Source: Bacteroidota bacterium
GTDB lineage: Bacteria; Bacteroidota; Bacteroidia; Bacteroidales; VadinHA17
NCBI GenBank assembly: GCA_003250475.1
Contig: QKGI01000047.1
Coordinates: 1-41,130 of the forward strand
DNA length: 41,130 nt
Direction of reading: 5' to 3'
The position numbers were made by a program, and so were the translations under genes. The notes under the pieces were generated by a model. It saw nothing but the letters and a program-made list of their open reading frames with translations. It was not told the DNA's origin and searched no databases. Positions 9,369 to 40,840 of this stretch are shown here, one piece after another (position 1 is the stretch's first letter; each line of letters opens with the position of its first letter).

Positions 9369-9477
9369 ATGAATCATGCGCTCTAATCCCGATCCCGACA
9401 TGTCGGGATCGAGGATGCTCGTAAAACATGCAAATCACAGATTTGCTGTTTTTCGGCACCATCTGAGCTATCTCGCC
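9369..9477 (-). pseudogene. Broken 5' copy of tRNA-Met, D-loop split by a 72-bp palindromic insert
   Basis: On the minus strand the copy begins GGCGAGATAGCTCAGATGG (9459-9477), identical to the first 19 bases of the intact gene. It is then interrupted by 72 bases and resumes with TTAGAGCGCATGATTCAT down to 9369, identical to the D-loop through the anticodon. The sequence then diverges, so the 3' half is absent. It lies between the tRNA promoter and the intact tRNA. It cannot fold as a tRNA and must be a relic or an element of another kind. Confidence 0.85.
9387..9458. repeat. 72-bp REP-like insert with three consecutive hairpins
   Basis: The insert in the tRNA-Met copy. Read on the minus strand it forms AAAACA-GCAAATC / GATTTGC-A-TGTTTT (13 pairs with one bulge), then CGAG/CTCG, then the perfect 20-bp palindrome GATCCCGACATGTCGGGATC. 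No coding frame is present. The three-hairpin design suggests an RNA or cruciform structural element; no source copy is seen elsewhere in the window apart from the related palindrome core in the tRNA-Val copy. Confidence 0.75.
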
Positions 9478-9492
9478 TTCAAAACAAGGGTG

Positions 9493-9526
9493 CAAATATA
9501 AATATTTTTTCATTTTGACCGGCAAA
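9493..9526 (-). promoter_or_regulatory. Promoter for the tRNA-Met locus
   Basis: On the minus strand TTTG (9523-9526), 22 bases, then TATATTTG (9493-9500), a TAnnTTTG match. The -7 element continues TATATTTGCAC, identical to the one before tRNA-Val. It ends 16 bases before the broken tRNA copy. The 35 bases between the broken and intact copies contain no comparable element. Confidence 0.65.
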
Positions 9527-9577
9527 CTTTTTCTTTTCAGCTATTATTTTTATATTGCATGACACTCACGCTCATCC

Positions 9578-9964
9578 ATGAGAATTAAATTCGAAATTGA
9601 ATACACCCTGAACTCTCCTACACGTGTTCTCTTTGACAGGTTAAGCACTCCTGAGGGACTGGCCGAATGGTTTGCCGATAATGTAACCGTTGAAGGAGAT
9701 ATTTTTACTTTCTACTGGGACAAAGCGGAAGCAAGAGCCCGTCTTGTTTATGCAAGGGAAAACAAAGCTGTGAAATTCGAATGGCTTGACTTTGCCGATA
9801 CAGAGACAAACTTCTTCGAGTTCCGCCTTATGATTCACGAACTGACAAACGAAACAGCCCTGGTTATCACCGACCATGCAGAAGAGGATGAGATGGAAGA
9901 TGCCAGGGATCTCTGGAATACCCAGATATCCTACCTGAAAAAGGTGCTCGGTCTGACCGAGTGA
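9578..9964 (+). CDS. START-like (SRPBCC/AHSA1-type) domain protein
   Basis: A 128-residue soluble protein filling one START-like helix-grip fold. The N-terminal strand is followed by the typical TPEGLAEWFADNV segment (residues ~28-40). The middle alternates strands (FTFYWDKAEARARLVYA), and the C-terminal helix (DLWNTQISYLKKVLGL) closes the cavity. This small cytoplasmic family is common in Bacteroidota and probably binds a hydrophobic ligand or a partner protein; no catalytic residues are visible. The next gene has its own promoter 8 bases after this stop. Confidence 0.88.
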   Translation: MRIKFEIEYTLNSPTRVLFDRLSTPEGLAEWFADNVTVEGDIFTFYWDKAEARARLVYARENKAVKFEWLDFADTETNFFEFRLMIHELTNETALVITDHAEEDEMEDARDLWNTQISYLKKVLGLTE

Positions 9965-9971
9965 AAGAACG

Positions 9972-10002
9972 TTGTTTCTTTCTTGAAAATAACGTACGTT
10001 TG
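9972..10002 (+). promoter_or_regulatory. Promoter of the lptF-type operon
   Basis: TTG at 9972-9974, 20 bases, then TACGTTTG at 9995-10002, a full TAnnTTTG -7 element. The start of transcription falls near 10009, which rules out an ATG at 9983 and supports ATG 10019 for the permease. Confidence 0.75.
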
Positions 10003-10018
10003 CACCACACCCGAGACA

Positions 10019-11518
10019 ATGAAGAAAATCGATCTGTTTATGATAAGGTCGTTTATAGGACCGTTGATACTGACGTTCTTTATTGTTCTCATTATCTTTA
10101 TACTCCAGTTCCTATGGATGTATGTCGATGAGCTTGCCGGTAAAGGTCTTGAACCTAAAGTCCTTGCCGAACTGCTCTTCCAGTTCTCACTCACCTTCGT
10201 ACCTCTCTCTCTCCCGCTGGCTATCCTGCTGGCCTCGCTGATGACCTTCGGCAACCTGGGGGAGTTCCTGGAGCTCACTGCCTTAAAATCATCAGGAGTG
10301 CCCCTTCAACGCATCATGCTGCCGGTCTTTGTCTTCGCCTCCCTGCTGGCCCTGGGCTCATTCGCCTTTGCCGACTACGTGCTGCCCATCTCCACACGTA
10401 AGGCAAGAACCCTCCTCTCTGATATACGTCGTATGAGACCGGAATTCGACATACAGGAAGGAACATTCTACAACGGGATAGACGGACTAAGCATAAAGAT
10501 AACAAACAAGGATCCCGAGACAAACAGGCTGGATGGCATCTATATATACGATAACAGGGGCGGCATAGGAAACTCATCCATCATTCACGCTGACTCCGGC
10601 TATATGAGAGTGACCGGCGATGAGAGCGGGCTCATTCTGACACTGTATAACGGGCATGCCTATAAAGATATAGAAGAGAAGAACGTACCACAGGACAAGA
10701 GGAAATACCCGTTCAGGCGTGATGTGTTTACGGAACAGACAATGGTCATTGAACTGACCGGATTCGGCCTTAACCGTTCAGGAATGGATCTCTACCGTTC
10801 AAACTACGCTATGCTCAACACCTCCGAACTGACTTACTTCATCGACTCGCTCTCAGGTCGATATGCCACCAGGTCTGACACCTATTTTGAAGAGTTCAGC
10901 AAAGCGAAGGTTTTTACAGCTGCCCACTATTTCACAGGCGGGTATCATTACTACGGAGATACTACTGCAGCCAGGAAACTGGAGAACTTCAACTGCAAGG
11001 GAACCTTTGACACCCTGAATTTCATGGACAAGACGGCAACAATCAGCCGGGCCCTCTCTTTTGCCCGTGATGGCACTTCATTCATGGTTGAAAAGAGTGA
11101 GGCTTTGCTTGTGGAGGCAAAAAACCTGAAGAGATATGAGGCTGAAAGATACAAGCGTTATACCCTGCCACTGGCCTGTCTTGTCTTTTTCTTCATCGGC
11201 GCCCCTCTGGGTGCCATTATACGCAAAGGCGGGCTCGGCACGCCGGCAGTGATATCCGTACTCTTCTTCCTGTTCTATTACGTGATATCCCTCTCCGGTG
11301 AGAAGTTTGCAAAAGAATTGATAATCAGCGTTCCGATAGGAATGCTTGCTTCAACAATAATACTTCTTCCTATTGGTATCTTCCTGACTTACAAGGCCAC
11401 CACTGATGCCGCAATCATGAACGCGGAGACTTACATCATCTTTATCAAAAAGATCGGCGCCTTCTTCACCGGGATAAAACCTGAAAAGGAAAATGAAGAT
11501 TCTGGTTCTGTCGTCTAA
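10019..11518 (+). CDS. LptF/LptG-family permease (YjgP/YjgQ)
   Basis: A 499-residue inner-membrane protein of the lipopolysaccharide export ABC permease family. Three N-terminal helices (first: FIGPLILTFFIVLIIFILQF) include the conserved ALKSSGVPLQRIM coupling segment. A periplasmic beta-jellyroll-like domain follows (about residues 130-340), then three C-terminal helices (TLPLACLVFFFIGAPLGAII). With LptB it would pull LPS out of the inner membrane and pass it to LptC. The start is set at 10019 by the promoter and normal family N-terminus (MKKIDLFMIRSF). The gene overlaps the next by 26 bases; the glycosyltransferases downstream fit an envelope-glycan operon. Confidence 0.9.
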   Translation: MKKIDLFMIRSFIGPLILTFFIVLIIFILQFLWMYVDELAGKGLEPKVLAELLFQFSLTFVPLSLPLAILLASLMTFGNLGEFLELTALKSSGVPLQRIMLPVFVFASLLALGSFAFADYVLPISTRKARTLLSDIRRMRPEFDIQEGTFYNGIDGLSIKITNKDPETNRLDGIYIYDNRGGIGNSSIIHADSGYMRVTGDESGLILTLYNGHAYKDIEEKNVPQDKRKYPFRRDVFTEQTMVIELTGFGLNRSGMDLYRSNYAMLNTSELTYFIDSLSGRYATRSDTYFEEFSKAKVFTAAHYFTGGYHYYGDTTAARKLENFNCKGTFDTLNFMDKTATISRALSFARDGTSFMVEKSEALLVEAKNLKRYEAERYKRYTLPLACLVFFFIGAPLGAIIRKGGLGTPAVISVLFFLFYYVISLSGEKFAKELIISVPIGMLASTIILLPIGIFLTYKATTDAAIMNAETYIIFIKKIGAFFTGIKPEKENEDSGSVV

Positions 11519-12704
11519 ACCACCATGGCCTCCTCGTGACGGAGGTGCTGTGGCTACGCTGAGATGCATTGAAGGTCTTGCCGCCAGTGGAGCAGGAGTA
11601 TCCCTCCTCTCAATGATCACAGAGAAACACTCTCCCGGGGATGTCTCTGCTGATAACCGTGATGACGGCATACTTGAAGAATACCGGACGGTACCGGTTG
11701 ACACAGCCATCAGGCCTCTTAAGATGATTGGCAACTTAATATTCTCCCGTGAACCCTATGACCTGGCACGATTCATTTCCCCATCATATTCTCAGTCGCT
11801 TCAAGCCATGCTTTCCGGCACGAGATATGACATTGTACAATGCGAAGGTCTCCTCTTTACTCATTATGTTGATGAAATCAGAAAAGCAACTGACGCTCCG
11901 GTGATATTGAGGGCCCATAACGTTGAGCATAAAATAAGGGAAATGATGGCGGCACAGGCTCTCAACCCTTTAAGGAAAATTTACCTTAATAATCTCTCAA
12001 AAAGACTAAGCAAGACCGAGACAGAAGCTTGCAGACGTTTTGATGCAGTGGTGCCTATCAGCGAACCTGACTGCCTATGGTACAGGAACATGTGCGATGA
12101 AAAGCCGGTACTTCTCTTAGAGACAGGGATGCCGGAAGCAGAATATGTCCCCGAACAGGAGGTTGAGAACATTCGTGTCGGTTTTATAGGAGCTCTTAAC
12201 TGGCAGCCTAACATCATGGGTTTAAAGTGGTTTCTTAAACATGTATGGCCATGTGTGTCCGCCAGGATCCCCTCGGCTACTCTGCATATTGCCGGCAGGG
12301 GTGCGCGTCAGGGCGACAGGCATTGGATTCGCGGAACAAGGGTGATGTTTGAAGGCGAGGTCGATGACTCCCGGGCCTTTATGACCTCCATGAATGTTCT
12401 TATTGCACCTCTATTCGCAGGCAGCGGCCTCAGGATCAAGATACTTGAAGCAATGAGCCTCGGCCGGACAATGGTGGCAACGCCGGTGGCAGTCAGCGGA
12501 TTGCCGGTTGAAGACGGCAAAGAACTGCTTATCGCCTCCGATAGCAGCTCATTCTGTACGAAACTGACCATGGCACTTACAGACCCCGTAATGAGAGTCT
12601 CAGCCGGGCAGGCAGCAGCAAAACTTGTGAGGGAGAGATATGACAATCACCTGCATTCTGAAGCACTTATCGGTTTTTACAGGAAAATGAGCCATGGTAC
12701 CTGA
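11493..12704 (+). CDS. Glycosyltransferase, GT4/GT1-type (GT-B fold)
   Basis: A 403-residue GT-B protein. The N-terminal domain starts with MKILVLSSKPPWPPRDGGAV, including the glycine-rich loop that binds the acceptor side. The C-terminal domain has NIMGLKWFLKHVWP and the donor-binding segment APLFAGSGLRIKILEAMSLG followed by VATPVAVSGL, the position of the EX7E-type motif. It transfers a sugar from a nucleotide donor, probably to a surface polysaccharide or glycolipid; donor and acceptor are not readable. It overlaps the permease upstream by 26 bases and the GT2 downstream by 11, so translation is likely coupled. Confidence 0.9.
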   Translation: MKILVLSSKPPWPPRDGGAVATLRCIEGLAASGAGVSLLSMITEKHSPGDVSADNRDDGILEEYRTVPVDTAIRPLKMIGNLIFSREPYDLARFISPSYSQSLQAMLSGTRYDIVQCEGLLFTHYVDEIRKATDAPVILRAHNVEHKIREMMAAQALNPLRKIYLNNLSKRLSKTETEACRRFDAVVPISEPDCLWYRNMCDEKPVLLLETGMPEAEYVPEQEVENIRVGFIGALNWQPNIMGLKWFLKHVWPCVSARIPSATLHIAGRGARQGDRHWIRGTRVMFEGEVDDSRAFMTSMNVLIAPLFAGSGLRIKILEAMSLGRTMVATPVAVSGLPVEDGKELLIASDSSSFCTKLTMALTDPVMRVSAGQAAAKLVRERYDNHLHSEALIGFYRKMSHGT

Positions 12705-13866
12705 AACAATAATGGCCATATCATTATTTCTCCTTGTCTGGACATATATTATCTATCCTGTCACAGTGATATTCAGTGCATCTATTTACAGGAACCGAAA
12801 AGGGAAGGTCAGGGAGAAACGACATGCACCTGACCTGCCTTTTGTTTCCGTGCTGATGTCTCTTTATAATGAGGAAAAGGTGACAGCAAACAAGGTTCGA
12901 AGCCTGCTGAAAACCGACTATCCTGCTGACCTCATTGAATTTATCCTCGGCTCCGACGGTTCTACTGATGACACAGGGATGATTCTCAAAGATATGGCTG
13001 CTACTGACAGCCGGATCAGGATGATCCACGTTCCACAGAGAAGAGGCAAACCAGCAATGCTGAACGATCTCGCAGCCTTAGCCCTGGGAGATGTTCTGAT
13101 TATTACCGATGCCAATGTGATGTTTTCCCCGGACACTGTCAGATATCTTGCTGAGCGGTTTGAAGAATCCTCAATCGGGTTGTGCGATGCCACTGTTGTA
13201 CCGGTAACACAGGGAGAGGCAGGCATTGAGAGGCAGGAGAACCTTTACGGACGTTTTGAGACCTTCCTTAAGCGGGCAGAGGGAGAACTCTGGGGGGCCA
13301 TGCCTGGACCCTACGGTGGTTGCTATGCTGTCAGACATGGACTTTTTCCGCTGCTTCCTGAAAATACGCTCGTTGACGATCTGTTTGTAGGTCTGACAGT
13401 GCTTGGGAAGAAGTACAGGTCGGTGAATATACCTGAGGCAACGGTGATGGAAGACACCCAGCCGGATATGAGGGGGCAGTTCCGCAGGAGGGTGAGAATA
13501 GCCGCCGGCTCATTCCAGAATCTCTTCCGCTTCGGTCCCTTCCCTTCAGAAAGGATATCAGTCTCCCTTGCATTCGTTTCCCATAAGATACTGAGGTGGT
13601 TAACCCCATTGTTCCTCGTGCTTTTTTTCATGACAACGGTCATTCTTTCAGGCCGTTCCGATTTCTACCTTTGTTTGACAGCAGTTCAGCTGATTTTCAT
13701 AATTTTGTCGGCGCTGGATCTGGTGCTTGACAGGTACGGCAGGAAGATAAAATATCAGAGGTACATAACCCAGTTCCTGTTGATGAATGTAGCACTGACG
13801 GCGGGATTTGTGAAAGCACTAAGAGGGGTTAAATCAGGGTTATGGGAGCCTACCAAACGAATTTAG
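12694..13866 (+). CDS. Membrane glycosyltransferase family 2
   Basis: A 390-residue GT2 enzyme of the processive or cellulose-synthase-like type. A single N-terminal helix ([19 protein letters not shown]) precedes the GT-A domain. Motifs are [23 protein letters not shown], the DxD-like [12 protein letters not shown], the acceptor region [15 protein letters not shown], and [15 protein letters not shown], the counterpart of the QxxRW motif (tryptophan replaced). Three C-terminal helices follow. It probably builds or extends a surface glycan at the inner membrane. It ends one base before ribBA begins. Confidence 0.9.
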
Positions 13867-13867
13867 A

Positions 13868-15112
13868 ATGACACAGGATACTAATCTGAATACCATTAAC
13901 GAAGCCATCGAGGAGATCAGAGAGGGCAGGATTGTCATCGTTGTTGATGACGAAGACAGGGAGAACGAGGGCGACTTCATCTGTGCGGCCGAGCTGGTCA
14001 CACCGGAGATAGTCAACTTCATGGCCACACACGGCAGGGGCCTGATTTGCGTGCCGCTCCCCGAAGAGCGTTGTGAGGATCTGGAGCTCGACATGATGGT
14101 AGGTCACAACACCTCCCTGCACGAGACCCAGTTCACCGTCTCGGTTGACCTCCTCAGTCCAGAAACTACGACGGGCATCTCGGCAAAAGACAGGGCGCTG
14201 ACAATAAAAGCACTTGTTGATCCGGCAACGAAGCCGGCACAGCTGGGAAGACCGGGACACATCTTCCCGCTCAAATCGCGGTCCAAAGGCGTATTGCGCC
14301 GTGCCGGGCATACAGAGGCTGCCGTAGACCTCACCCACATGGCAGGGCTAAGACCCGGTGGCGTACTGGTTGAGATAATGAACGAGGATGGCACAATGGC
14401 CCGTCTTCCTGACCTGCTCGTCCTCTCGAAAAAATTCGGCATTAAAATTATCTCAATAAAAGACCTCATCCGTTATCGTCTTGGTATTGAATCAATAGTT
14501 GAGATAGGTGAACAGGTTAAACTACCGACAGAGTATGGCGACTTTGACTTTATTCCTTTCAGGCAGGTGAGCAACGGGCTGGAGCATGCTGCTCTGGTGA
14601 AAGGTACCTGGACAAAAGACGAAGCCGTACTTGTCAGGGTTCATTCATCATGCTTCACCGGTGATATCTTCGCTTCAAAAAGATGCGACTGCGGACCGCA
14701 ACTGCACAAAGCCATGCAAATGGTTGAGGAAGCCGGTAAAGGAGCCATCATCTACCTTAACCAGGAAGGCAGGGGCATAGGCCTGATAAACAAGATACGC
14801 ACATACAAGCTCCAGGAGCAGGGACGTGACACCGTGGAAGCAAACATCGAGCTTGGTTTTCAGGAAGATGAACGCGACTATGGCATAGGAGCAAATATCA
14901 TGAGGGGAGTCGGGCTGGGCAAGGTGAAGCTTATCTCCAATAACCCTGTCAAGAGGGCCGGACTGGAAGGATACGGGATCACGATTGTGGAGACAGTTCC
15001 GCTGGTCATACCGCCAAATCCTTTCAATTCCTTTTACCTCGAGACCAAGGCAACCAAGATGGGTCATACCCTGTCATGTTATAAAACGCCCACAAAAGGC
15101 GAGGATGACTGA
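13868..15112 (+). CDS. ribBA: Bifunctional 3,4-dihydroxy-2-butanone 4-phosphate synthase / GTP cyclohydrolase II
   Basis: A 414-residue two-domain enzyme of riboflavin synthesis. Residues 1-205 are the RibB domain, which makes the four-carbon unit from ribulose 5-phosphate ([14 protein letters not shown] metal and acid loop, [23 protein letters not shown]). Residues ~206-405 are the RibA domain, opening GTP, with the zinc cysteines in [17 protein letters not shown] and the NQEGRGIGL phosphate loop. Both active sites look intact and the length is normal. The rest of the rib pathway is not here. Its last 8 bases overlap fmt. Confidence 0.97.
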
Positions 15113-16061
15113 GAACCTGCCACGCATAGTGTTTATGGGAACACCCGCTTTTGCAGTGGCCAGCCTGGATGCCCTGCACAAGGCAGGCTTTCCGGTGGTT
15201 GGTGTCGTTACTTCTCCCGACAAACCGGCAGGAAGGGGTCGTAAGTTATCTGTCAGCCCGGTAAAGGAATATGCACTCGGGCATAACCTTAAGATCTTTC
15301 AACCTGAGAAGCTGCGCGATGCTGATTTCATAAACGATCTCAGACACCTGAATGCCGATATCTTCGTAGTGGTGGCTTTCCGCATGCTTCCTGAAGAGGT
15401 ATGGAGGATTCCTCCTCTCGGCACGTTTAATCTCCATGCCTCCCTCCTGCCACAGTACCGTGGAGCAGCCCCAATAAATCATGCCGTAATGAACGGTGAG
15501 ACAAAAACCGGAGTCACTACTTTTCTTATTGACAAGGAGATAGATACCGGCAACATACTTCTCGCCCGTGAAACTGCTATCGGACCCGAGGAAGATGCAG
15601 GCAGCCTGCATGACCGTCTGATGGTTATGGGCGCGACCCTGGTCATTGAGACTGCAGCGGGACTCTTTGAAAGACGGCTCAAACCGCTTCCCCAGGCAAT
15701 GCCACGGGGTCAGGAGCTTAAACAGGCTCCGAAGATTTTTCCACCCGACCTGATAATCAACTGGAGAGACCCCGCCTTCAGGATACATGATAAAATCAGG
15801 GGGCTTTCACCCTATCCGGGAGCTGTGACAACCCTCCATTCTGAAGATAGACTCATGAGAATCAAGATCTTCGCGAGCAGAGTCATGGATAATGTGACAA
15901 CTATACCCGGGACAATCATCCTGAATGACAAATCTAGGTTTATCATCTCATGTTCTGTTGGTGCCCTGGAAGTCACATCGGTACAGCCGGAAGGCCGTAA
16001 ACGGATGACCGGCGCAGAGTTTCTCAGGGGATTTGACCCGGCCGGATGGGAACTGGTCTGA
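15105..16061 (+). CDS. fmt: Methionyl-tRNA formyltransferase
   Basis: A 318-residue enzyme, the usual length, that formylates initiator Met-tRNA with 10-formyl-THF. The N-terminal Rossmann domain starts [18 protein letters not shown]. The catalytic region has [20 protein letters not shown] with the conserved Asn, His and SLLPxYRGA loop; the C-terminal OB domain begins around residue 210. ATG 15105 overlaps the ribBA stop (ATGACTGA) and gives the family's normal N-terminus; an upstream in-frame ATG at 14985 would only add residues translated out of ribBA and is rejected. Confidence 0.96.
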
Positions 16062-16071
16062 CCGGATACGG

Positions 16072-17157
16072 TTATCTTAGCCTGAGCTTCTGCCCGACGG
16101 CACACTCCGAACCCTCCTCCATAAGGTTCATCTTATAAAGCGACGAGAGCCTGATAGCATACTTTTGTGAGATGCTGTGCATGGTCTCACCCGTACTTAC
16201 AACATGTATTGCAAAACCCTGTGCTGCTTTTGTCCTCTTAAGCTGAATGTAGATTACCTGTCCGGGCTTCAGGGCAGTACCCGGGGGAAGGTCATTGTAA
16301 CGGCTTATTTCCCATGCGAGAATCTGGTATTTCTCTGCAAGCGACTCGCCTGTGTCACCCTCCTCAACAACGACGTATTTGACACCGTTGTTCTCCTGGA
16401 TTGTCCTTCGGGTATTGAGACTGATAACCTTAATAGGCTCTTCTGCTTCCGCCGGAGGAGTGATCACTGGTGACGACTGCTGATGAGCAGTATCCGTCAA
16501 ACCCGTGACCTCATTGTTTCCAGAAGGAGGTGCATTGACCGGAGCTTTCGCATCAGTGTTTTTTCCGGTTGCCACAGGCATCTTCCCCGCTGAATCGGCA
16601 ATTCCTTTCATGCCAGTGTCATACGCATGCAATCCATACTCTTCTATCTTTCTTATCAGTAGCTCCGGGTATTTGGGGTCTGTGGCATACCCGGCTTTTT
16701 TCAGCCCGTGTGCCCAGCCTTTGTAGTCGGTACTGCTCAGCCTGAAGAGATCCCTGTAACGGGAACCGTTCACCAGGAAGTCAGAATGATCCCTGTATGA
16801 ATCCTCAGCCGACTTATATGCCCTGAAGCATTCTCCCCTTCGATTGTCATCATGGTAGATCCTCCTTCCCCTCCAGTCGTTATGACATTTTATCCCGAAA
16901 TGGTTATTGCCCTTTGTAGCCAGTGTGCTCCGCCCGTAGTTCGACTCAAGCATGCCCTGTGCAAGAGTAATGCTTGCAGGTATCCCTGTCCTCTTCATCT
17001 CACTAACAGCCAGAGAGCTGTACCTGTTCAGGTAATCGATCGCATAGGAGGGCGTTGGACCCGATGGTGCAACGGTTCGTGCCGCCCTGCGTGTTGAACT
17101 GCAGGAATAAAGCAACAAAATCAGCAGAAGGAATGTATAACGGGTGAGATTTCTCAT
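16072..17157 (-). CDS. Glucosaminidase (GH73) lipoprotein with two LysM domains
   Basis: A 361-residue predicted lipoprotein with lipobox LLYSC, lipid Cys at 19. Residues ~40-175 form a GH73 peptidoglycan N-acetylglucosaminidase domain with the catalytic acid in AQGMLESNYGRS (Glu71) and the typical NNHFGIKC segment. A low-complexity linker (~180-255) follows. Two LysM domains occupy about 258-306 (VVVEEGDTGESLAEKYQI) and 313-361 (HVVSTGETMHSISQKYAI). It likely cuts or remodels peptidoglycan while held at the membrane, possibly in division. It is convergent with fmt, 10 bases apart, and has a promoter 15 bases upstream. Confidence 0.93.
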   Translation of the reverse strand: MRNLTRYTFLLLILLLYSCSSTRRAARTVAPSGPTPSYAIDYLNRYSSLAVSEMKRTGIPASITLAQGMLESNYGRSTLATKGNNHFGIKCHNDWRGRRIYHDDNRRGECFRAYKSAEDSYRDHSDFLVNGSRYRDLFRLSSTDYKGWAHGLKKAGYATDPKYPELLIRKIEEYGLHAYDTGMKGIADSAGKMPVATGKNTDAKAPVNAPPSGNNEVTGLTDTAHQQSSPVITPPAEAEEPIKVISLNTRRTIQENNGVKYVVVEEGDTGESLAEKYQILAWEISRYNDLPPGTALKPGQVIYIQLKRTKAAQGFAIHVVSTGETMHSISQKYAIRLSSLYKMNLMEEGSECAVGQKLRLR

Positions 17158-17171
17158 CAGAAGAGTTTTGA

Positions 17172-17204
17172 CAAAAATATAAAAATGTCTGTAGCCTCTG
17201 CAAA
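17172..17204 (-). promoter_or_regulatory. Promoter of the LysM glucosaminidase gene
   Basis: On the minus strand TTTG (17201-17204), 21 bases, then TATTTTTG (17172-17179), matching TAnnTTTG. The -7 element lies 15 bases before the ATG. Confidence 0.65.
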
Positions 17205-17407
17205 TCCTAACGCCACAGTAAAAATATTATTACTTTTATTGCGCTATAAGTCACTGTTATTGCATATGAAACAGATATGTTTCCCGGAATATGACCTGGC
17301 TCATAAACAGAGAGGAGCGAATCTTGATTTAGTTAGGGTTAATAACGGTGACGCTTTACCCTTTGCAGGGACGAGCTTTCAAACCAAGGCAAATAAATCT
17401 CATTACT

Positions 17408-17893
17408 ATGAAGAAGAGAGAACTTAGTATCTCTTACCTGGAATATAAGGGAACAGATGAGCTTTCTGAAGCTGACAGGCATCTGGTAGAAGAGGCAAAG
17501 ACTGCAGCCGCCGGCGCCTATGCGCCCTACTCGCATTTCATGGTAGGCGCTGCCATTGAGCTTGATGAGGGCACAGTAGTCAGGGGAGCCAATGTCGAGA
17601 ACGCCGCTTTCCCGTCAGGGAGCTGCGCTGAGAAGACTGCCCTGTCATATACGGTAGCGAACTTCAGTGATAAAAAAGCCAAGGCAATTGCCATCGTCGC
17701 TTTTTCTGAAGGGGAACTGACAGATGATCCGGTACCCCCATGCGGTAACTGCCGTCAGATGCTTATTGAGGAGGAACAGAGGCTGGGTAGCCCGATAAGA
17801 GTTATTCTTGCAGGTAAAACAGATGTTATTATCCTTGACAACTGCCAGTCGCTCATGCCTCTCAGCTTCACCCGCACCAACCTCCGGAAATAA
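17408..17893 (+). CDS. cdd: Cytidine deaminase
   Basis: A 161-residue zinc enzyme that turns cytidine or deoxycytidine into uridine or deoxyuridine in pyrimidine salvage. The zinc-binding and catalytic motif appears as GSCAEKTAL (Cys and proton-shuttle Glu) and the second zinc site as PPCGNCRQM, with AYAPYSHFMVGAA before them. The first ligand is Cys (C-A-E), as in the homotetrameric form. Start ATG 17408 (MKKRELSISYLEYKG) is used; an in-frame ATG at 17348 adds a poor N-terminal tail. It stands alone, convergent with rprY. Confidence 0.95.
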   Translation: MKKRELSISYLEYKGTDELSEADRHLVEEAKTAAAGAYAPYSHFMVGAAIELDEGTVVRGANVENAAFPSGSCAEKTALSYTVANFSDKKAKAIAIVAFSEGELTDDPVPPCGNCRQMLIEEEQRLGSPIRVILAGKTDVIILDNCQSLMPLSFTRTNLRK

Positions 17894-21916: not shown

Positions 21917-22053
21917 GACCCCAGACCTTCAGACCTCAGACCGGTCCGATCCGCCAGCTGGCGGAGAAGGAGCCAGATTGCAGGGATAGAAAGACCTCAG
22001 ACCTTCAGACCACACGACTGCAAGACCGCAAGACCGCAAGACTGCAAGACATT
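21917..22053. repeat. AGACC/GACTGCAA array behind panB
   Basis: CAGACCTTCAGACCTCAGACC precedes the 47-bp module (in pieces: AGACCTTC, AGACCTC, AGACC), and behind the module come AGACCTC, AGACCTTC, AGACC, then four 8-base units GACTGCAA, GACCGCAA, GACCGCAA, GACTGCAA. It ends five bases from the panB stop codon. No coding frame; a 77-codon plus-strand frame through the repeats is spurious. Confidence 0.85.
21943..21989. repeat. 47-bp interspersed module, copy 2
   Basis: The same module as 17979-18025, differing at two bases. It carries the perfect palindrome CCGCCAGCTGGCGG and is embedded in the AGACC array. Confidence 0.9.
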
Positions 22054-33540: not shown

Positions 33541-34529
33541 TATTTGTTAATCCACCTGTATCTCCTCGGGTTGTCGCCGAAGCGGGCCAGGAAAGTCAGC
33601 TCGTGAGTACCATAGGTATAGCTGCGAATCTCTGAGAAGGTGAAGTCAAATGCATAACCAACATAAAACCGGTCGACTTTCAGACCGGCCAGGAGTATAA
33701 CAGCATCACCGGTACGGTATGACAAACCCAGCCAGTAATCCTCCTTGTAATAGACCCTGCCTGTCAGATCCAGCTGCACAGACTTGAAGATCATGTCTGA
33801 CGACTTCAGCATAACTGATGGTTCTATCACCCAGTCAGTGCCGGCATAAAACTTCACTCCTCCTGTGAGAAAGTAGTGACCGAGCTCCGAATGACCATTT
33901 TCTCCACCGTTACCTATCATAAACGCTCCCCTGAACAGGTTCGTCATTGAGAAGCCGGCATAATATCTGCGTGTCATGTAGCTTACCCCGAAATTGGCAT
34001 CCGGAATATAAACTACCTGGTCATAGTTATTCAGGAAATCATCGCTGACATCGTCAGGCATCACTGCCCCGTTAATGTCGACAAAATACTGGTATGCGCT
34101 GAGGGAGAGACCGAAAGAGAGCTGCCGGTCAATTCCTACAGGGAGATGATAGGCATAGGCCATCTGCAACCCTGTCCTGTGCATTATGCCGTTGTGGTCT
34201 GAAAAGAGATAACCTCCCAGTCCAACCCGTCCTCCTTTGGTTGGCCTGTCTATCCTCTTCCTTACCGCTGTTGATTTGGTGATATAACTGTCATTCAGTA
34301 TCCTTGTCTGGAATGTTGCGGCATAGGTGCTCGGAGCCTCCGGGAAGTTAAGCCACTGCTCACGGACAGTCAGGCCGACAGTTGTATAATAATCACTGCC
34401 TGCATATGATGGATTGAGCAGGAATCCGTTCATGATGTACTGGCTGTACATCGGGAACTGCTGTGCGTGCAGCGCAGGAATAACCGCCAGAAGGCCAGCA
34501 ACGGCAAATATTCTAAGTCGTTTTATCAT
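33537..34529 (-). CDS. Type IX secretion PorP/SprF-family outer-membrane protein
   Basis: A 330-residue protein with a signal peptide (to ALHAQ) followed by the family's N-terminal signature FPMYSQYIMNGFLLNPSYAG. Alternating strands (VGLGGYLFSDHNGIMHRTGL, YYAGFSMTNLF, YWLGLSYRTGDAVILLAGLK) fit a 14-stranded beta-barrel. Members bind and anchor or help export one particular SprB-type adhesin, and are usually encoded directly downstream of it, exactly as here. The start follows the adhesin stop by 140 bases. Confidence 0.93.
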   Translation of the reverse strand: MIKRLRIFAVAGLLAVIPALHAQQFPMYSQYIMNGFLLNPSYAGSDYYTTVGLTVREQWLNFPEAPSTYAATFQTRILNDSYITKSTAVRKRIDRPTKGGRVGLGGYLFSDHNGIMHRTGLQMAYAYHLPVGIDRQLSFGLSLSAYQYFVDINGAVMPDDVSDDFLNNYDQVVYIPDANFGVSYMTRRYYAGFSMTNLFRGAFMIGNGGENGHSELGHYFLTGGVKFYAGTDWVIEPSVMLKSSDMIFKSVQLDLTGRVYYKEDYWLGLSYRTGDAVILLAGLKVDRFYVGYAFDFTFSEIRSYTYGTHELTFLARFGDNPRRYRWINKY

Positions 34530-34668
34530 AATAGAATATGATTAATAAGGCATGCTGTAACACACATATGATTCATCCTGTAACAAATAGGGCTTCGTCG
34601 GTTCAGGTCTCCGGTCCTTTGTTGCGATTCAGAACATTGGTGCTTCATTTTTCCTTACGGTTATCAGG

Positions 34669-37600
34669 TTATTTGCTTATGATTGAGATGATTCCCGTAC
34701 GTGGTTCGGAACCGTCATTGAGGTGAATGACATAATGATATGAGTCGTTCGGCAGGACTTTGCCGTTGTAAGTACCATCCCACTCGTCAGTTGCATTGCG
34801 TGAGTGATAAACCAGCTTGCCCCAGCGGCTGTAAACAAATACCTCAGCATCGGGGTACAGGTCGGCATTTCTCAACTGCCACGTATCATTCCGGCCATCA
34901 CCATTGGGGGTTATTATCTCGTATACTCTCAGACAGTTAATACCCACCACATCTACAGTTACATTGAGCGTCCGGGTGCAACCGTTAACGTCAGTGACTA
35001 TCACCTGGTAATCGCCCGGTAACAAAGCAGTACGGTCCTGAGTGGTAGCCCCGTCATTCCAGAGATAGGTGAGAGTACCGGAGCCGCCCACAACTTCAAG
35101 GTCAATAATACCGTCAGGAGTATCCGGACAGCTGGCAGGCAATGTGTTGTAGGTAAGCGTCATTGCATCAGGGGGTGTCAACACATAATCGTTAATAAGA
35201 ATACATCCGCTTATGTCAGTTATTGTCAGTGTGTAGAGTCCCGCCCTCAGGAAAGAGATGTCTGACTCTGTGGAGACAAACCCGTCCGGTCCGCTCCACA
35301 GGAGTGCCAGCGGAGGTGTGCCTCCTGCTACAGTCACGGAAATTGACCCGTCAGCTGATTCCGGACAGGTGACACCATAGCCCCAGTAGTCAGACAGCGT
35401 CTCGCTGGTGATGATTATCTCATCCGGCTGGGTGATAGTCTCGGTGAAGCTGTATGAGGCACAACCATTAAGGTCAGTAACTGCCAGAGAGTATGTTCCT
35501 ACTGTCAGACCGGTTATGTCAGGTGACGAGGATGTCCAGCCTGAAGGCCCGCTCCAGCTGACATCATATGGTTCCGTACCGCCTTCAAGAGTGACGTAAA
35601 CGGCACCGTCATTACCGGCAAAACAGGTCACGTTGAATGTGCTGTCTAAGACAGCAGTGAAGGGCAAGGGCTCAATAACCTCCAGTGTGGTGCCGGCAAC
35701 ACATCCCTTTGAATCCATCACTTCAAGCATATATGTCGCGGCTGCCAGGCCGGTGAAATCGCCGGATGGCTGGAACGGCGCTCCGTCGATGCTGAAAGCA
35801 TAAATCCCTGAGCCTCCCGAAGCGCCAATATGTATCTCGCCGTCAGTAAGACCGACACAGCTGATATTATCCAGGGATAACACCTCAAGTACAGGTAACG
35901 GATTGAGGGTGATAACAGATGAAGATGTGACCGTACCGCATGTCCCTCCGCCCACAACCTGCATGGTAAGTGTTACTGTGCCGGCAGAATAATCGGCAGG
36001 GCCGAAGGTATAATAGGGATTATCAGCCGAGATGTCGTCAAAGGTGCCGTCTCCGCTGCTGGACCATGTCATTGTTCCACCACTGTGGGAAGCTCCGGTA
36101 ACCTGGTAGCCGGTAACAGAGACGCAGACTTCTCCCCCGGCACCGGCATCAGCAACCGGGGCGGTGGTAAAGGTTATTACAACATCATCAGCTATGGTGC
36201 CGCAGGTGCTGGCTGTAACTGTCATTGTAAGCGTCACGGGACCTGCATCTGCGGAGCCGAAAGTATACACGGGATTTGCGATGGCAGGATCATCGAATGT
36301 GCCGTTGCCGGACGTGGTCCATAAAATAGTCCCGTTCGATGCTGAAGCATCCGTTAGCGCGACATCGGCAGTACCGGAGCAGAGATCCTTGTCTGCACCG
36401 GCATCGGCTGCCGGTATGCCTTCAAAGGTAAGGGTCATCGCGTCAGTAAGTGTCTCCGGACAACCATTGATCTTGTTACCGGTAAGTGTAAGAGTCACCT
36501 CTGTGAGGTCTGTCGCACCACGGGTATAGATGGGATTGATAATAGACGGGTCACTAAACGAGCCGGAACCGGAGGTGGTCCAGAGGAGACTCATGTTCGA
36601 AGCCGAAGCACCGGTTATGTTGTAGGTGGCATCGGTGACACATATCTCGTCATCAGGCCCGGCATCAAGTGATACCGTGAACGGGTCAGTGACCGTGATG
36701 ACAGAATTACATTCAGCTGTATTGCCGCTGGCATCGGTTACGGTAACTGTTATTGTCACGCTGCCCAGGTCGGCACAGGTAAATGTCGATCTGCTCAGAT
36801 CCACTGTAGCGACAGAGCAATTATCAGTCGGAGGCCCGGCCAGGATATCAGAAGGAACGATTACAGCATTACCTGTAGCGTCAAGGCTGACAGAAGCGTC
36901 AGAACAGCTCACCACAGGGGCTTCGGTATCATTGACGGTCACAGTGAATACACATGTCGAAACCATCCCGTCATCATCGGTAGATGTGTAAGTAACGGTG
37001 GTCAGCCCGACAGGGAAAGTGGCACCAGGGAGGTGTGTTGAGACCATCGGTGCACTGGATACCGGAGGTGTCCAGCTAACAACAGCAGAGCATAAGCCCG
37101 GATCATTGCCGGTAACAATATCGGCAGGACAGCCTGTTATGACAGGAGGATCGTTGTCATTAACGGTGATGGTGACATCCTGCGCCGCCAGACCGTCGAA
37201 GTTATTATCAGAAAGAGACTGGTTGACAGTTACAGCTATTATATCCGTCCTGTCAGTATCAAGGGCATCCTCGATGGCAGTGACGTCAACCACTACAGGC
37301 ACATCCCAGTTTAGAGAAGTAAATGTCACCTGTGAAATGTGGGTGACATATACCGGTGCGGCATTGAGAAGATCAAACACCACATCTGTCTCAGGCTGGG
37401 CAGTGAGCACTATTGTGAACTGACCGGCAGGGCCTCCCTCATCAATGGTGAGAGCAAGCGGATTCACGACGAAACCTGCCAGATCATCATTGGTTACATT
37501 GACGCTGACCGATGCTGTTACACCATCATAGCCATCGTATGAAAGGGCATCATTGACGGTAAGACTGATCGTGGTTGAAGCATCCGGGATGGTGTTGTTA

Positions 37601-40464
37601 TCCACACCGGTTACTGTTATTGTCCGGGGAATATTCCAGTCGAGACCTGTGAATGTCAGCTGGGAGAGGTCAATGGTAGCTACTGCTGTATTGTTGCTTA
37701 GAAGGTCTATTACAACACTCCCTGAAGCAGGAGCCGCTGACAGTGATACGGTGAATGTTGCTGTTCCGTTTTCTGCAACCGTAACGGATGATGGATTGGC
37801 AATTATTGCTGCAACATCATTGTTCACGATGGTTACAGGGATTGATATATCAGGCAATGGATCAAACGGATCATCGGAGAGAGCATCGTTAACAGCAATG
37901 ATGACATTGTCAGTCATATCTCCGAGAATGTCGTTCTCTGTTGATTGCAGAGTGATCACCTGGTGGCTTGCGTAGTTAGAGGTGTTGAAGGTCAGGGTTA
38001 CCGGATCAACTGTAAGCAGACCTGCCATCACTGTTGAGATATCCAGTGTAACAGACCCGGCAGGAGCATTTGAGAGCCACACCTCGATAGTGGCTGTCGA
38101 TCCTTCATCCATGGTAACGGAGGAAGGTGAATATAGTATTGCAGGAATATCGTCGTCGATGATTGTAACTGTTGCAGGTGTTGGATCGACCGTAACGACA
38201 GGAGTACCTGATACTCCTGTGACCGTAACCGTCACCGTCTCGTCGCCCTCAACAACCAGGTCTGCAACAGGGGTCAGGGTGAGGTCATATGTAACCGCAC
38301 CGGCAGCCATCACAAAAGAGCCTGGCAGCGCATTATAGTCAGTACCGGAAGACGCGCTACCTGAGACTGAATATGACACAGTACGGGCAGTGGAGACCGG
38401 ATTTGTGAAGGTAAAGGTAAATGTCCCCGTCCCGGATGCGCCGGGTCCTCCCTCAAGAGCATCGGAATCGGTGGCAGTGACGCTCACGGTTGAGTTATCA
38501 TCGTTAAGGATGGTGTATACGGAACTGAGTATTGTGCCGGCCTCTACAGTCACAAAGGTGTTGAGGTTAAGGTTCACAGTCTCGTCAGGCTCTACGATAA
38601 GATCTCCCAGGATGGTGAGCACCGAGGCCGGTATCGGGATTAAAACAGGAGTGGTATAATCGCCTGCCGGGATAGAGACAATATTTACTGCCTGAGACCA
38701 GTCTGACGAGGAGGCAGTGCCGTTAGTCACCATCAGGATAAGACTCCCGGGTGAACTTATGATGCCTCCGCTGACCACTATCTGTGGCGCTGTGACACTG
38801 CCTGCGGCGTCGCCTTCAGGGCCCGAGGCTGTGGCTGAGGAGAACGAAACGGTTACATGATCATCATTAAGTATAGTGTATGTATAGCTGTTCTGACTAC
38901 CTATTGAGAGTCCTGCAGAAGGATTGGAAAGACCTGCAATGATAGTTTCGCCGGGCTCAACAAGATCATCGTCGATAATAGTGATATCGAATGAACCGGT
39001 TACAGATCCTGCAGGAATAAAGACAGTTCCCGGGGCAAGGATATAGTCAGCACCGCTGGTTGCTGTCCCGCCGGTAGCAGCATAGTCAAAAGAGATATCC
39101 GATGCCTGCGGGTAATTGAGATAAGCCTGGACCGTCACACTGGTAATATTCTCGAGTCCTGAAGCTGAAGGAACTGTAAAATTAACCTCAGGTCTGAAGG
39201 CGATTATGGCAAGATGGTCACCGTCGGTAATGTTCATATCGACAGTGTAGCTTCCTGCGCTAAGGGTCAGGAGGTGCATGGTGGCGCCTGATGTGAAATC
39301 ACCGTCAGCGTCAGTAAGGATTCCCAGCATAGGATATCCGGACGGAAGGGATGGCAGAGAAGATGAAGGGATGCTTATTGTCACCGTGCCCGCATCACCT
39401 GTCTCATCAAACCTCCACTCCCTTGCCAGGCGGAAGGTTCCGGGTGCTGGCACCTCGTCAGTAGTCCACGTCCCTGCATCGCCCCTGTCATGCCCAAAAA
39501 AGAGATACTCTCCCTCGGAGAGATCCGTCGGCGATGTGACTGACAGCATACCTGTCGACCAGGCATTTGTAAACAACGTGCCGTTAAAGGCAGCTAATCC
39601 CGAGACATCATGTGAATGGGTCAACTCCCACTCAAAATGATCATCAGCTATGGGTAACAGATACTTTGCCCCGAGGTTGTTCTGTAGCACAATCCTTTCA
39701 GCATCATTAAGTTGTCCTGAGAAGACGGCTATCTCCGTCATGTCCCCATTGAAAAAGCCGGCCGGATCAAGAGTGCCGTTCATCTGGGTAGCACCCAGCA
39801 GGGCAAAATTCGAGACAAGAGAAGGCACAAAACCCGATGATGAGCTTCCGGTAAGCGGGGTGCCGTTAAGGTAAGCCCCGTATGCGGAGACAGAAGCACC
39901 GGATGGGTTAGTGTAATATATTATTTTCCAGTCCCCGGCTGTGTGACCGTCATCGAACACCTGGTCATGGCCATTGAACCTTACTGCGTCAGCATACTCA
40001 AGTCCATAGCTCCTGACTGCATTTACTCCACCTACGCTCTTCTGACCCATGTAAAGGCCGCCGTTCTGTTCATCAGTACCGGTTGTATTCCTGGCAACGA
40101 TAACCACCGTGGCGGCATCAGAACCTGATATGCCCAGCGACCCGTTATAACCGAGGAAGTCTCCTCCCACGCCGCCCTGGTCTGTGAATGTAACTGCGGG
40201 ATAACCATTTATAACGTCAAGAGTGACCGAAGGAACCGTCTGGCCCATTATCACTGCGCCGAAGTCGCGCATGTGCCCTGACAGATCATACCAGCTCGTT
40301 ACAAAATAGAGTGGCTGGATAGCAATAAGACTGTCTGACCGTAGCCAGAGCTGTGTATTGGTAAAGCTGCCCACACCTCCCGGGCCCACCTGTGCTTCCG
40401 CTGTCAGTGGCAGCAGTATCAGGAGTGATGCAAGGGTAATGGTTAACAAACGGGTTTGTTTCAT
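34669..40464 (-). CDS. Giant T9SS type-B secreted adhesin with Calx-beta, HYR, PKD-like and SprB repeats
   Basis: A 1931-residue protein. The signal peptide (MKQTRLLTITLASLLILLPL, end AEAQ) sets the start at 40464; an ATG 45 bases upstream would bury it. Residues ~25-290 are a LamG-like region (DUF8202-type) with TQLWLRSDS. From ~425 come three Calx-beta domains (each ending ILNDD or IIDDD), three related ~115-residue cadherin-like units to ~1105, an HYR domain to ~1190, an Ig-like unit, three PKD-like units (~1265-1525; WTTSGSGSFSDPSIINPIYT type), four SprB repeats (~1530-1840), and the gliding-type C-terminus ITPNGDGRNDTWQLRNADLY to the end. It should be exported by the type IX system and held by the PorP/SprF partner downstream, serving adhesion or gliding. 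Confidence 0.92.
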   Translation of the reverse strand: MKQTRLLTITLASLLILLPLTAEAQVGPGGVGSFTNTQLWLRSDSLIAIQPLYFVTSWYDLSGHMRDFGAVIMGQTVPSVTLDVINGYPAVTFTDQGGVGGDFLGYNGSLGISGSDAATVVIVARNTTGTDEQNGGLYMGQKSVGGVNAVRSYGLEYADAVRFNGHDQVFDDGHTAGDWKIIYYTNPSGASVSAYGAYLNGTPLTGSSSSGFVPSLVSNFALLGATQMNGTLDPAGFFNGDMTEIAVFSGQLNDAERIVLQNNLGAKYLLPIADDHFEWELTHSHDVSGLAAFNGTLFTNAWSTGMLSVTSPTDLSEGEYLFFGHDRGDAGTWTTDEVPAPGTFRLAREWRFDETGDAGTVTISIPSSSLPSLPSGYPMLGILTDADGDFTSGATMHLLTLSAGSYTVDMNITDGDHLAIIAFRPEVNFTVPSASGLENITSVTVQAYLNYPQASDISFDYAATGGTATSGADYILAPGTVFIPAGSVTGSFDITIIDDDLVEPGETIIAGLSNPSAGLSIGSQNSYTYTILNDDHVTVSFSSATASGPEGDAAGSVTAPQIVVSGGIISSPGSLILMVTNGTASSSDWSQAVNIVSIPAGDYTTPVLIPIPASVLTILGDLIVEPDETVNLNLNTFVTVEAGTILSSVYTILNDDNSTVSVTATDSDALEGGPGASGTGTFTFTFTNPVSTARTVSYSVSGSASSGTDYNALPGSFVMAAGAVTYDLTLTPVADLVVEGDETVTVTVTGVSGTPVVTVDPTPATVTIIDDDIPAILYSPSSVTMDEGSTATIEVWLSNAPAGSVTLDISTVMAGLLTVDPVTLTFNTSNYASHQVITLQSTENDILGDMTDNVIIAVNDALSDDPFDPLPDISIPVTIVNNDVAAIIANPSSVTVAENGTATFTVSLSAAPASGSVVIDLLSNNTAVATIDLSQLTFTGLDWNIPRTITVTGVDNNTIPDASTTISLTVNDALSYDGYDGVTASVSVNVTNDDLAGFVVNPLALTIDEGGPAGQFTIVLTAQPETDVVFDLLNAAPVYVTHISQVTFTSLNWDVPVVVDVTAIEDALDTDRTDIIAVTVNQSLSDNNFDGLAAQDVTITVNDNDPPVITGCPADIVTGNDPGLCSAVVSWTPPVSSAPMVSTHLPGATFPVGLTTVTYTSTDDDGMVSTCVFTVTVNDTEAPVVSCSDASVSLDATGNAVIVPSDILAGPPTDNCSVATVDLSRSTFTCADLGSVTITVTVTDASGNTAECNSVITVTDPFTVSLDAGPDDEICVTDATYNITGASASNMSLLWTTSGSGSFSDPSIINPIYTRGATDLTEVTLTLTGNKINGCPETLTDAMTLTFEGIPAADAGADKDLCSGTADVALTDASASNGTILWTTSGNGTFDDPAIANPVYTFGSADAGPVTLTMTVTASTCGTIADDVVITFTTAPVADAGAGGEVCVSVTGYQVTGASHSGGTMTWSSSGDGTFDDISADNPYYTFGPADYSAGTVTLTMQVVGGGTCGTVTSSSVITLNPLPVLEVLSLDNISCVGLTDGEIHIGASGGSGIYAFSIDGAPFQPSGDFTGLAAATYMLEVMDSKGCVAGTTLEVIEPLPFTAVLDSTFNVTCFAGNDGAVYVTLEGGTEPYDVSWSGPSGWTSSSPDITGLTVGTYSLAVTDLNGCASYSFTETITQPDEIIITSETLSDYWGYGVTCPESADGSISVTVAGGTPPLALLWSGPDGFVSTESDISFLRAGLYTLTITDISGCILINDYVLTPPDAMTLTYNTLPASCPDTPDGIIDLEVVGGSGTLTYLWNDGATTQDRTALLPGDYQVIVTDVNGCTRTLNVTVDVVGINCLRVYEIITPNGDGRNDTWQLRNADLYPDAEVFVYSRWGKLVYHSRNATDEWDGTYNGKVLPNDSYHYVIHLNDGSEPRTGIISIISK

Positions 40465-40728
40465 AGCGGTCAGGATCGGTTTCCTAAAACATATCGTACT
40501 ATATATCAAACAGTTAAGTCAACAATCCAAAAGTATTCGCGATTGAATTGTAACTCATTAGCAGTCAAAAAGTACCAGAAGCTAATATATATAAATTTCA
40601 ATTATCGGTATCATTCCCTGGTGATGTATAATTAACACAGTTAATAACATGACCATTAGAGATCACGAATGGTTGCTTTGTTAAAAACTGCAACTGAAGG
40701 GAGGTTGGATTTTATTTAATTCAGGCCC
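40465..40728. other. AT-rich gap between adhesin and tRNA-Val locus
   Basis: About 260 bases without a credible gene. It must hold the adhesin promoter; TATGTTTT (40483-40490 region, minus strand) is the nearest TAnnTTTG-like sequence but mismatches the last base. No repeat or RNA structure is apparent. Confidence 0.5.
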
Positions 40729-40758
40729 TTGTGTAATTAAAAATAGAGCTTATATTTG
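40729..40758 (+). promoter_or_regulatory. Promoter of the tRNA-Val locus
   Basis: TTG (40729-40731), 19 bases, then TATATTTG (40751-40758): an exact Bacteroidota housekeeping promoter. It lies just upstream of the broken tRNA copy, and no second promoter precedes the intact gene. Confidence 0.8.
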
Positions 40759-40771
40759 CACTCTCTTTTGA

Positions 40772-40840
40772 AGGCGATTAGCTCAGTTGGTTCAGAGCAT
40801 CCCGACTTCCAGTCGGGAGGGTCGTAGAGCAAGTGGGCGT
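40772..40840 (+). pseudogene. Broken tRNA-Val-like copy with exchanged anticodon arm
   Basis: The first 26 bases (from GGCGATTAGCTCAGTTGG through TTCAGAGCA) equal the intact tRNA-Val, as does GGGTCGTAG after the anticodon arm. The arm itself is different: CCCGA-CTTCCAG-TCGGG, with TCC in the anticodon place (a glycine anticodon), and it forms the palindrome ATCCCGAC...GTCGGGA. After GTAG the T arm and 3' acceptor strand are missing (AGCAAGTGGGCGT), so no cloverleaf can form. Possible origins are a chimaera with tRNA-Gly(TCC) or insertion of a REP palindrome. Confidence 0.8.

Follow-up and report, generated by a model that had tools for sequence, protein, structure and literature searches.

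The stretch of DNA analysed here (41,130 nucleotides; hereinafter, the window) is the entire contig C46 of a 3.47-Mb assembly that is 97.8% complete. It encodes two tRNAs, both identified by ARAGORN and Rfam, namely tRNA-Met(CAT) on the minus strand and tRNA-Val(TAC) on the plus strand. The tRNA calls and repeat matches confirm the claim of an earlier note on this DNA that both loci share the same order of elements, that is, a promoter, a palindrome-interrupted 5′ copy of the tRNA (hereinafter, copy A) and the intact tRNA (Table 1). In both cases, the homology of the copy begins at the mature 5′ end (nucleotide (nt) 1 in Met, nt 2 in Val), and that of the Val copy ends in the T-stem. The two loci differ in the affected site, the Met copy having an insert at the D-loop and the Val copy having its anticodon arm replaced by a hairpin. 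A downstream copy of tRNA-Val (hereinafter, copy C), if any, would fall past the contig end that truncates the GIY-YIG endonuclease gene.

Table 1. Features of the tRNA-Met and tRNA-Val loci in the window
Feature	Position	Strand	Remarks
Promoter -7 box TATATTTGCAC, tRNA-Met locus	9490..9500	-	Exact match; 17 copies genome-wide
Displaced 5′ copy A of tRNA-Met, nt 1-20	9458..9477	-	100% identity
71-nt insert, D-loop of Met copy A	9387..9457	-	Ends in palindrome ATCCCGACATGTCGGGAT and CGGGA terminus
Met copy A continued, nt 20-37	9369..9386	-	100% identity
Spacer between Met copy A and intact tRNA-Met	9334..9368	-	
Intact tRNA-Met(CAT)	9259..9333	-	ARAGORN, Rfam
Promoter -7 box TATATTTGCAC, tRNA-Val locus	40751..40761	+	Exact match
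Displaced 5′ copy A of tRNA-Val, nt 2-28	40773..40799	+	100% identity
Hairpin TCCCGACTTCCAGTCGGGA replacing the anticodon arm, Val copy A	40800..40818	+	
Remainder of Val copy A (variable loop and 5′ T-stem)	40819..40827	+	Breaks off before the T-loop
Intact tRNA-Val(TAC)	40848..40923	+	ARAGORN, Rfam; identical to the lone tRNA of the empty site in congener G062
Probable terminator hairpin of intact tRNA-Val	40931..40955	+	By reading
GIY-YIG endonuclease ORF, truncated by contig end	40962..41130	+	Starts 38 bp after tRNA-Val

The -7 box occurs exactly twice in the window, once at each locus (expected number, 0.01), and the earlier note took it for part of a logic shared by the two loci. It turns out to be a frequent, ordinary promoter box, with 17 occurrences in the genome, including those 5′ of Ala(GGC), Thr(CGT) and Ser(TGA), for none of which was a copy detected by the self-copy test described below; it is therefore ruled out as a mark of common origin.

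Downstream of tRNA-Met (window positions 8995-9142), a 63-nt sequence is directly repeated (two units, 95%). By reading, terminator-like units are likewise arrayed in this genome 3′ of tRNA-Cys, Gln(TTG) and Ser(CGA).

Broken tRNA copies and GIY-YIG genes in the genome and across Bacteroidota

Partial tRNA self-copies in the genome to which the window belongs (hereinafter, the own genome) exceed chance. With matches of at least 14 nt at 95% in flanks of up to 600 nt, intact tRNAs being masked, a partial self-copy was detected near 12 of the 40 distinct tRNA genes (13 tRNA-flank pairs) compared with 22 of the ~3,120 non-self pairs, and these 22 matches sit in flanks that already hold a copy. 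Among the loci that we read, Ala(TGC), Val(CAC), Val(GAC), Cys, Met (C30) and Pro(TGG) have 5′ copies with a hairpin; 3′ copies that contain a hairpin or are truncated accompany Lys(CTT), Gln(TTG), Ser(CGA), Pro(CGG), Met (C30) and Val(GAC). D-loop inserts resembling that of the window Met copy were recognized, by reading, in the Met (C30) and Pro(TGG) copies. Each of the three GIY-YIG genes detected in this genome lies next to a tRNA that has a broken copy: one is located between Val(GAC) and its 3′ copy, another between the 5′ copy of Pro(TGG) and the intact Pro(TGG), and the third is the gene that follows Val(TAC) in the window.

Two other tRNA loci of the same genome show peculiarities of their own. 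Upstream of tRNA-Leu(CAA) (L051), nt 3-18 are repeated in the inverted orientation near a short direct partial copy, possibly a fold-back event. Identical tRNA-Ser(CGA) genes with shared upstream sequences lie near contig ends on different contigs (L054 and L055) and are perhaps one repeat split by the assembly.

The GIY-YIG gene is about 80 codons long and encodes the catalytic domain only (PF01541; 4.6e-17 for the C30 protein and 1e-10 for the window fragment), with no added DNA-binding domain. The conserved catalytic positions Y5, Y16, G18, R26 and E63 are invariant in 11 GIY-YIG sequences. By sequence profile, the closest solved relatives of the nuclease domain are UPF0213 and SLX1, the SLX1 chains being larger (183-324 residues).

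Copies of tRNAs in which a hairpin replaces the anticodon arm recur across Bacteroidota. Scanning for the pattern AGAGCATCCCG-N4..30-CGGGAGGGTC yielded at least 118 stretches, and the 80 loci that were analysed, 71 of them from Bacteroidota, contain 110 hairpin copies that usually adjoin an intact tRNA and sometimes form tandems; at least one match outside Bacteroidota, the archaeal L063, has no tRNA nearby. The exact pattern was found in 12 of 149 genomes of the class (none for the reversed control), which is a lower bound because the pattern favours TCCCG hairpins. Together with the self-copies in the own genome, this recurrence bears out the suggestion of the earlier note that the two window loci reflect a recurrent process. 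Although these loci were picked by the hairpin alone, 44 of the 80 contain a GIY-YIG gene. All 58 GIY-YIG matches share the strand of the hairpin copy, and 57 of them are at most 500 bp from such a copy; no GIY-YIG was found in the other 36 loci, some of which are cut by contig ends. The order intact tRNA, GIY-YIG, hairpin copy was observed in 22 loci, 5 of these with an additional hairpin copy ahead of the tRNA, and the order hairpin copy, GIY-YIG, intact tRNA in 3, with many other loci cut by contig ends; in three loci (L117, L127 and L133), the unit of GIY-YIG and copy is repeated.

The association is also apparent from the nuclease side. A GIY-YIG profile constructed from 11 rows gave 126 matches, distributed over 42 of the 60 genomes searched in the class, and the best 90 of the 126 loci were examined. 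At 63 bits and above, 31 of the 36 GIY-YIG genes are within 300 bp of a tRNA, always on the same strand, with a median gap of 40 bp, and four of the remaining five lie at most 450 bp from the end of the fetched stretch. The fraction of tRNA-linked genes is 4 of 20 at 55-63 bits and 4 of 34 at lower scores, and in a control zone 600-900 bp off the GIY-YIG gene, incomplete at some loci, a tRNA was found at 0 of 36, 0 of 20 and 1 of 34 loci of the three score classes, respectively. GIY-YIG splits into a tRNA-linked subfamily and a largely unlinked remainder, the split by score being partly by design because the profile was built from tRNA-linked members. For many isotypes, partial copies of the same tRNA are present on the far side of the GIY-YIG gene. 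A perfect TCC..GGA palindrome lies beyond GIY-YIG at 16 of the 31 tRNA-linked loci (2 of these 31 with only 7 nt inspectable) vs 37 of 1,220 control windows, and also at 4 of the 5 high-scoring loci with no tRNA in reach. This co-occurrence with broken tRNA copies, at the hairpin loci, in the own genome, among the high scorers and at the Met locus of three congeners (see below), lends weight to the earlier proposal that a GIY-YIG nuclease might be the agent.

In a tree of 61 GIY-YIG sequences with an adjacent tRNA (49 after and 12 before the intact tRNA; 19 isotypes; 81 columns; 32 of 58 inner branches unresolved), 29 isotype changes are required compared with 42.2 after shuffling, and none of the 200 shuffles gave a number as low. 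The sequences associated with Val(TAC), Met, Lys, Asn, Ser(TGA), Leu(CAA) and Gly cluster, several of these groups spanning more than one host family, and those associated with Ala, Asp, Arg(TCT), Val(GAC) and Phe are scattered. Thus, the GIY-YIG clades appear to tend to follow the tRNA isotype, the shuffles speaking to the clustering and not to its cause.

The broken copies are truncated at uniform points, as judged from the 70 of the 110 hairpin copies that are measurable, the homology from AGAGCA to the variable loop being forced by the search pattern itself. Among the 41 copies A, 31 start at nt 1 and none extends past nt 62; the end falls at -4 to +9 nt of the T-loop GTTC in 40 of them, and GTTC was not found in the remaining one. 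Of the 29 copies C, 23 start at nt 12-22 and 17 reach the 3′ end; one, in L103, lies between two tRNAs and extends to nt 1. The earlier note had placed the entry of a REP-type element at the D-loop or anticodon arm, with a functional tRNA kept behind it. Both sites and the retained intact tRNA stand, the T-loop has to be added, and the REP-type element does not hold for the window palindromes, which are single-copy.

Occupied and empty alleles

Within the genus, the interval from the promoter to tRNA-Met is readable in 8 genomes. Copies A with differing hairpins are present in the own genome, G062, G069, G070 (2 copies) and G066 (at least 2, with a run of N), and degenerate copies A in G060 and G065; G067, in which only 123 nt 3′ of the tRNA are covered, has no 5′ copy. 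A profile search identified GIY-YIG on the tRNA strand in G066, G069 and G070 (54, 53 and 250 bp after the tRNA), and none in the Met-locus stretches of the own genome, G062, G060, G065 and G067. In G066, the GIY-YIG gene is followed by a copy C with the same hairpin as the copies A of this genome; no clear copy C was seen within the 190 nt read in G069 and G070. The presence of GIY-YIG at the Met locus of three congeners raises the probability of a homing element and lowers that of a REP-type origin. Most simply, the window Met locus is an A-only footprint, an element site where the nuclease has been lost or was never fixed.

The window Val locus is an occupied site. In the congeners, there is no copy at this locus in G062 and G067; copies A are present in the own genome, G065 and G066, and in G060, G061 and G070 the contig breaks off close to or within tRNA copies. 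The Val-locus stretches covered contain no GIY-YIG apart from that of the own genome; copies A with no GIY-YIG in the stretches searched are thus those at the Val locus of G065 and G066 and at the Met locus of the own genome and G062. The tRNA-Val of G067, a more distant congener, differs from that of the own genome, to which the tRNA of the empty G062 site is identical.

Occupied and empty alleles in close relatives are found also for Ser(TGA), in addition to the occupied Met sites of G066, G069 and G070. In G055, a member of another genus, tRNA-Ser(TGA) is followed by a terminator, then by GIY-YIG and finally by a copy C that is interrupted between nt 36 and 37 by a 22-nt insert, whereas G080 and G013 have a single tRNA identical to that of G055 and no GIY-YIG in the stretch covered. 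The terminator after the G055 copy C matches the terminator after the single tRNA of G080 in 41 of 47 positions (0 of 1,000 shuffles as high), whereas the match of the terminator after the intact G055 tRNA is weak (28 of 39; 18 of 1,000 shuffles). The element thus lies within the original gene, the 3′ end of which was pushed downstream. The second empty site, that of G013, matches neither of the G055 terminators.

The 3.2-kb Ser(TGA) stretch of G055 (L291/L217) has 165 own-genome matches, a large dispersed repeat family; most of the matches, among those listed, are to the part downstream of the element.

Origin of the displaced copies

We consider it fairly probable that the window loci represent footprints of small homing elements of the free-standing, SegB-like GIY-YIG kind that reside in chromosomal tRNA genes of Bacteroidota. 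At the level of sequence, the architecture of the loci, the association of GIY-YIG with the broken copies, the partial tracking of isotypes, the empty and occupied alleles, the displaced terminator and the covariation of the palindromes (see below) all point in this direction. Under this scenario, the GIY-YIG nuclease would cut inside a tRNA gene, as SegB of T-even phages does, and recombinational repair would place the nuclease gene beside the tRNA, with one complete tRNA restored from element-borne sequence and the rest of the original tRNA displaced as a broken copy. Copy A would then retain the promoter and the sequence from nt 1 to about the T-loop, and copy C would begin at about the D-loop and include the original 3′ end and terminator. 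Repeated cutting and repair between direct repeats could give rise to tandem arrays and to the match between broken and intact copies, and the palindromes at the former tRNA loops of the broken copies most likely replace or mark the cut sites. We infer the cutting, homing as the route of spread and the cause of the hairpins from these patterns.

Several observations complicate the picture. No GIY-YIG was found at 36 of the 80 hairpin loci or with the copies A named above, the sequences of five isotypes are scattered in a tree in which most inner branches lack resolution, and the empty G013 site does not match the displaced terminator. The intact tRNAs are identical between the own genome and G062 (Val) and between G055 and both G080 and G013 (Ser), so that a nuclease cutting the tRNA of the empty site should also cut its own, unless the flanks or structure decide. 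Furthermore, given the lack of an added DNA-binding domain and the structure-specific activity of the nearest solved relatives, UPF0213/SLX1, sequence-specific homing is not assured.

The last two observations bear on a serious rival that overlaps with the homing scenario and differs from it in what is cut, and that we regard as possible, albeit doubtful. The hairpins could be the recognition sites of the nuclease, such that extruded cruciforms in the broken copies are cut by a structure-specific, SLX1-like GIY-YIG enzyme, with the hairpin copies serving as the mobile ends of the element and the host tRNA escaping cleavage. The kinship with UPF0213 and SLX1 and the sameness of the intact tRNAs in the empty and occupied alleles compared are in line with this possibility, and so, in part, is the structure of the hairpins. 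Their sequences differ among congeners, with palindromy kept. Pair 1, next to the fixed TCCCG/CGGGA stem, is a Watson-Crick pair in 92 of 93 cases (shuffles: mean 57.9, largest 70) and is never G-T, which suggests that palindromic DNA is kept or made and favours DNA palindromes over RNA helices. This argument is weakened by pair 2 (72 of 85 Watson-Crick; shuffles: mean 34.5, largest 50), which includes 5 T-G pairs, as RNA pairing would allow; pair 3 is Watson-Crick in 24 of 46 cases (shuffles: mean 16.9, largest 25). Cutting confined to hairpins would, however, leave the first invasion of a hairpin-free tRNA unexplained.

REP/REPIN and the Rickettsia palindromic elements are short palindromes inserted at many places. 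By analogy, REP-type or other mobile palindromes might enter tRNA loops, with only the insertions in duplicated tRNAs surviving and the GIY-YIG genes acting as hitch-hikers or helpers, an explanation that appears unlikely to us. Some hairpin types are indeed repeated: palindromes of the type TCCGCC..GGCGGA occur at 43 places in the own genome vs 8 for the reversed control, and in 9 of 20 stretches read, as well as at window position 21950, the palindrome is located inside a dispersed non-tRNA repeat frame, which, by reading, is also present within the Met (C30) and Leu tRNA copies. Given that such dispersed palindromes are in some cases found inside tRNA copies, a hairpin element may contribute to the latter. 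The two window palindromes, by contrast, are each single-copy in the genome, unlike those of REP/REPIN and the Rickettsia elements, and the hairpins change in sequence from one congener to another yet remain palindromic. The core ATCCCGAC/GTCGGGA, in which the earlier note saw a candidate REP family, has to be abandoned in this role, given that the class TCCCGA..TCGGGA, with 22 occurrences vs 16 for the reversed control, is hardly above the background. Furthermore, a REP-type origin leaves unexplained the position of GIY-YIG between the intact and broken copies, the uniform truncations and the displaced terminator.

The dispersed non-tRNA repeat consists of the near-constant frame CCTGCA..GGCTCCTTC..CGGCCC with a variable hairpin in the middle and is embedded among short repeats of the GGTCTGAAGGTC type. 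It was found at window positions 21930-21990 and in L345, L346, L348, L349, L350, L354, L356, L360 and L364.

It is quite improbable that the copies A are functional RNA leaders (decoys or antitermination elements) of the tRNA transcripts that are kept by the host. They are located between the promoter and the intact tRNA, as expected of leaders, and at some of the hairpin-copy loci the spacers contain what we take to be a boxA-like motif; however, some congeners have no copies A, the copies at one and the same locus can be repeated, degenerate or absent, and the downstream copies C carry the same kind of hairpin. Ordinary tandem duplication of tRNAs followed by decay, with the palindromes arising at random, is highly improbable. 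The degenerate copies in G060 and G065 and the existence of tandem arrays would fit such decay, whereas the uniform truncation points, the covariation of the palindromes, their excess over the control windows and the presence of GIY-YIG at the breakpoint would not. Finally, 3′ partial tRNA copies at a short distance are the usual att remnant, and some tRNAs of the own genome have 3′ copies only, but remnants of tyrosine-integrase islands with tRNA attachment sites hardly come into consideration: 5′ copies are equally common in this genome, a single small ORF separates the copies at the GIY-YIG loci, the hairpins replace the anticodon arm, and there is no integrase among the 10 window proteins scanned (part of the ORFs of the window).

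Related systems and implications

Mitochondrial double-hairpin elements are short, palindromic and thought to be mobile; to our knowledge, they have not been tied to a displaced tRNA copy with an adjacent GIY-YIG gene. The closest parallel to the homing elements proposed here appears to be SegB of T4 and T6, a homing endonuclease of the GIY-YIG family that is free-standing and belongs to the tRNA region of these phages (PMC13096335, PMC2988022). According to the accessible text of PMC13096335, the T6 SegB cleaves inside tRNA genes and is required for the segmental amplification of tRNA-Tyr, and SegB is often found near tRNAs of many isotypes in phages. The SegB motif given there, RAWTSGAAC, seems, by reading, to be the complement of the T-loop GTTCSAWTY, where the copies A break off (PMC13096335). 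The likeness lies in the domain and the position of the gene, a GIY-YIG nuclease gene adjoining tRNA genes; cleavage in tRNA genes and tRNA amplification are reported for SegB. As far as the accessible part of the SegB survey goes, it is concerned with phages, whereas the elements described here, about 80 aa in size, are found on bacterial genome contigs. Unlike SegB as portrayed in that part, they lie against a tRNA, their clades tend to follow the isotype, and they are bordered by displaced tRNA copies with a palindrome at a loop. A different parallel comes from the mitochondrial DNA of Endoconidiophora, where atp6 and cob contain homing endonuclease ORFs and the host gene is partially duplicated, the nuclease ORFs of cob being located between the intact gene and a duplicated C-terminal segment (PMC6279837, in its accessible part). 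These cases differ in involving protein genes, organelles and degenerated ORFs, and the same part of PMC6279837 describes neither a tRNA target nor a hairpin-replaced copy.

Free-standing GIY-YIG homing nucleases linked to tRNAs have thus been described in phages; in the open-licence literature (titles and the beginnings of abstracts), we found no description of tRNA-adjacent GIY-YIG genes with hairpin-bearing tRNA copies on bacterial chromosomes or of cellular elements with hairpin-marked displaced tRNA copies. As a tentative and rather speculative extension, these loci might represent a phylum-wide class of mobile elements that combine a minimal structure-specific GIY-YIG nuclease with tRNA copies armoured by hairpins. 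Such an element would have its own recognition and end structures in the palindromes at the D-, anticodon and T-loops, rapidly rewritten yet palindromic, letting it cut, amplify and move with the working tRNA unaltered.

If the homing scenario is true, minimal homing nucleases would repeatedly parasitise the chromosomal tRNA genes of a major bacterial phylum, which would account for puzzling tRNA fragments and for small GIY-YIG genes, and the link between SegB and tRNAs in phages would extend to cells. A testable question also follows, namely how a nuclease spreads through an essential gene that is left unchanged in sequence, and why palindromes stand in for tRNA loops in the discarded copies.

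Carriage by phages was considered and rejected. The hairpin pattern occurs on 3 viral contigs, with GIY-YIG in one of these (L365) and none in the stretches covered of the other two. A tblastn search of phages with one Lys-type GIY-YIG retrieved one phage, in 2 records. The IMG/VR contig L365, classed as viral, contains hairpin-bearing tRNA-Lys copies, an intact tRNA-Lys, a GIY-YIG gene and a downstream copy.
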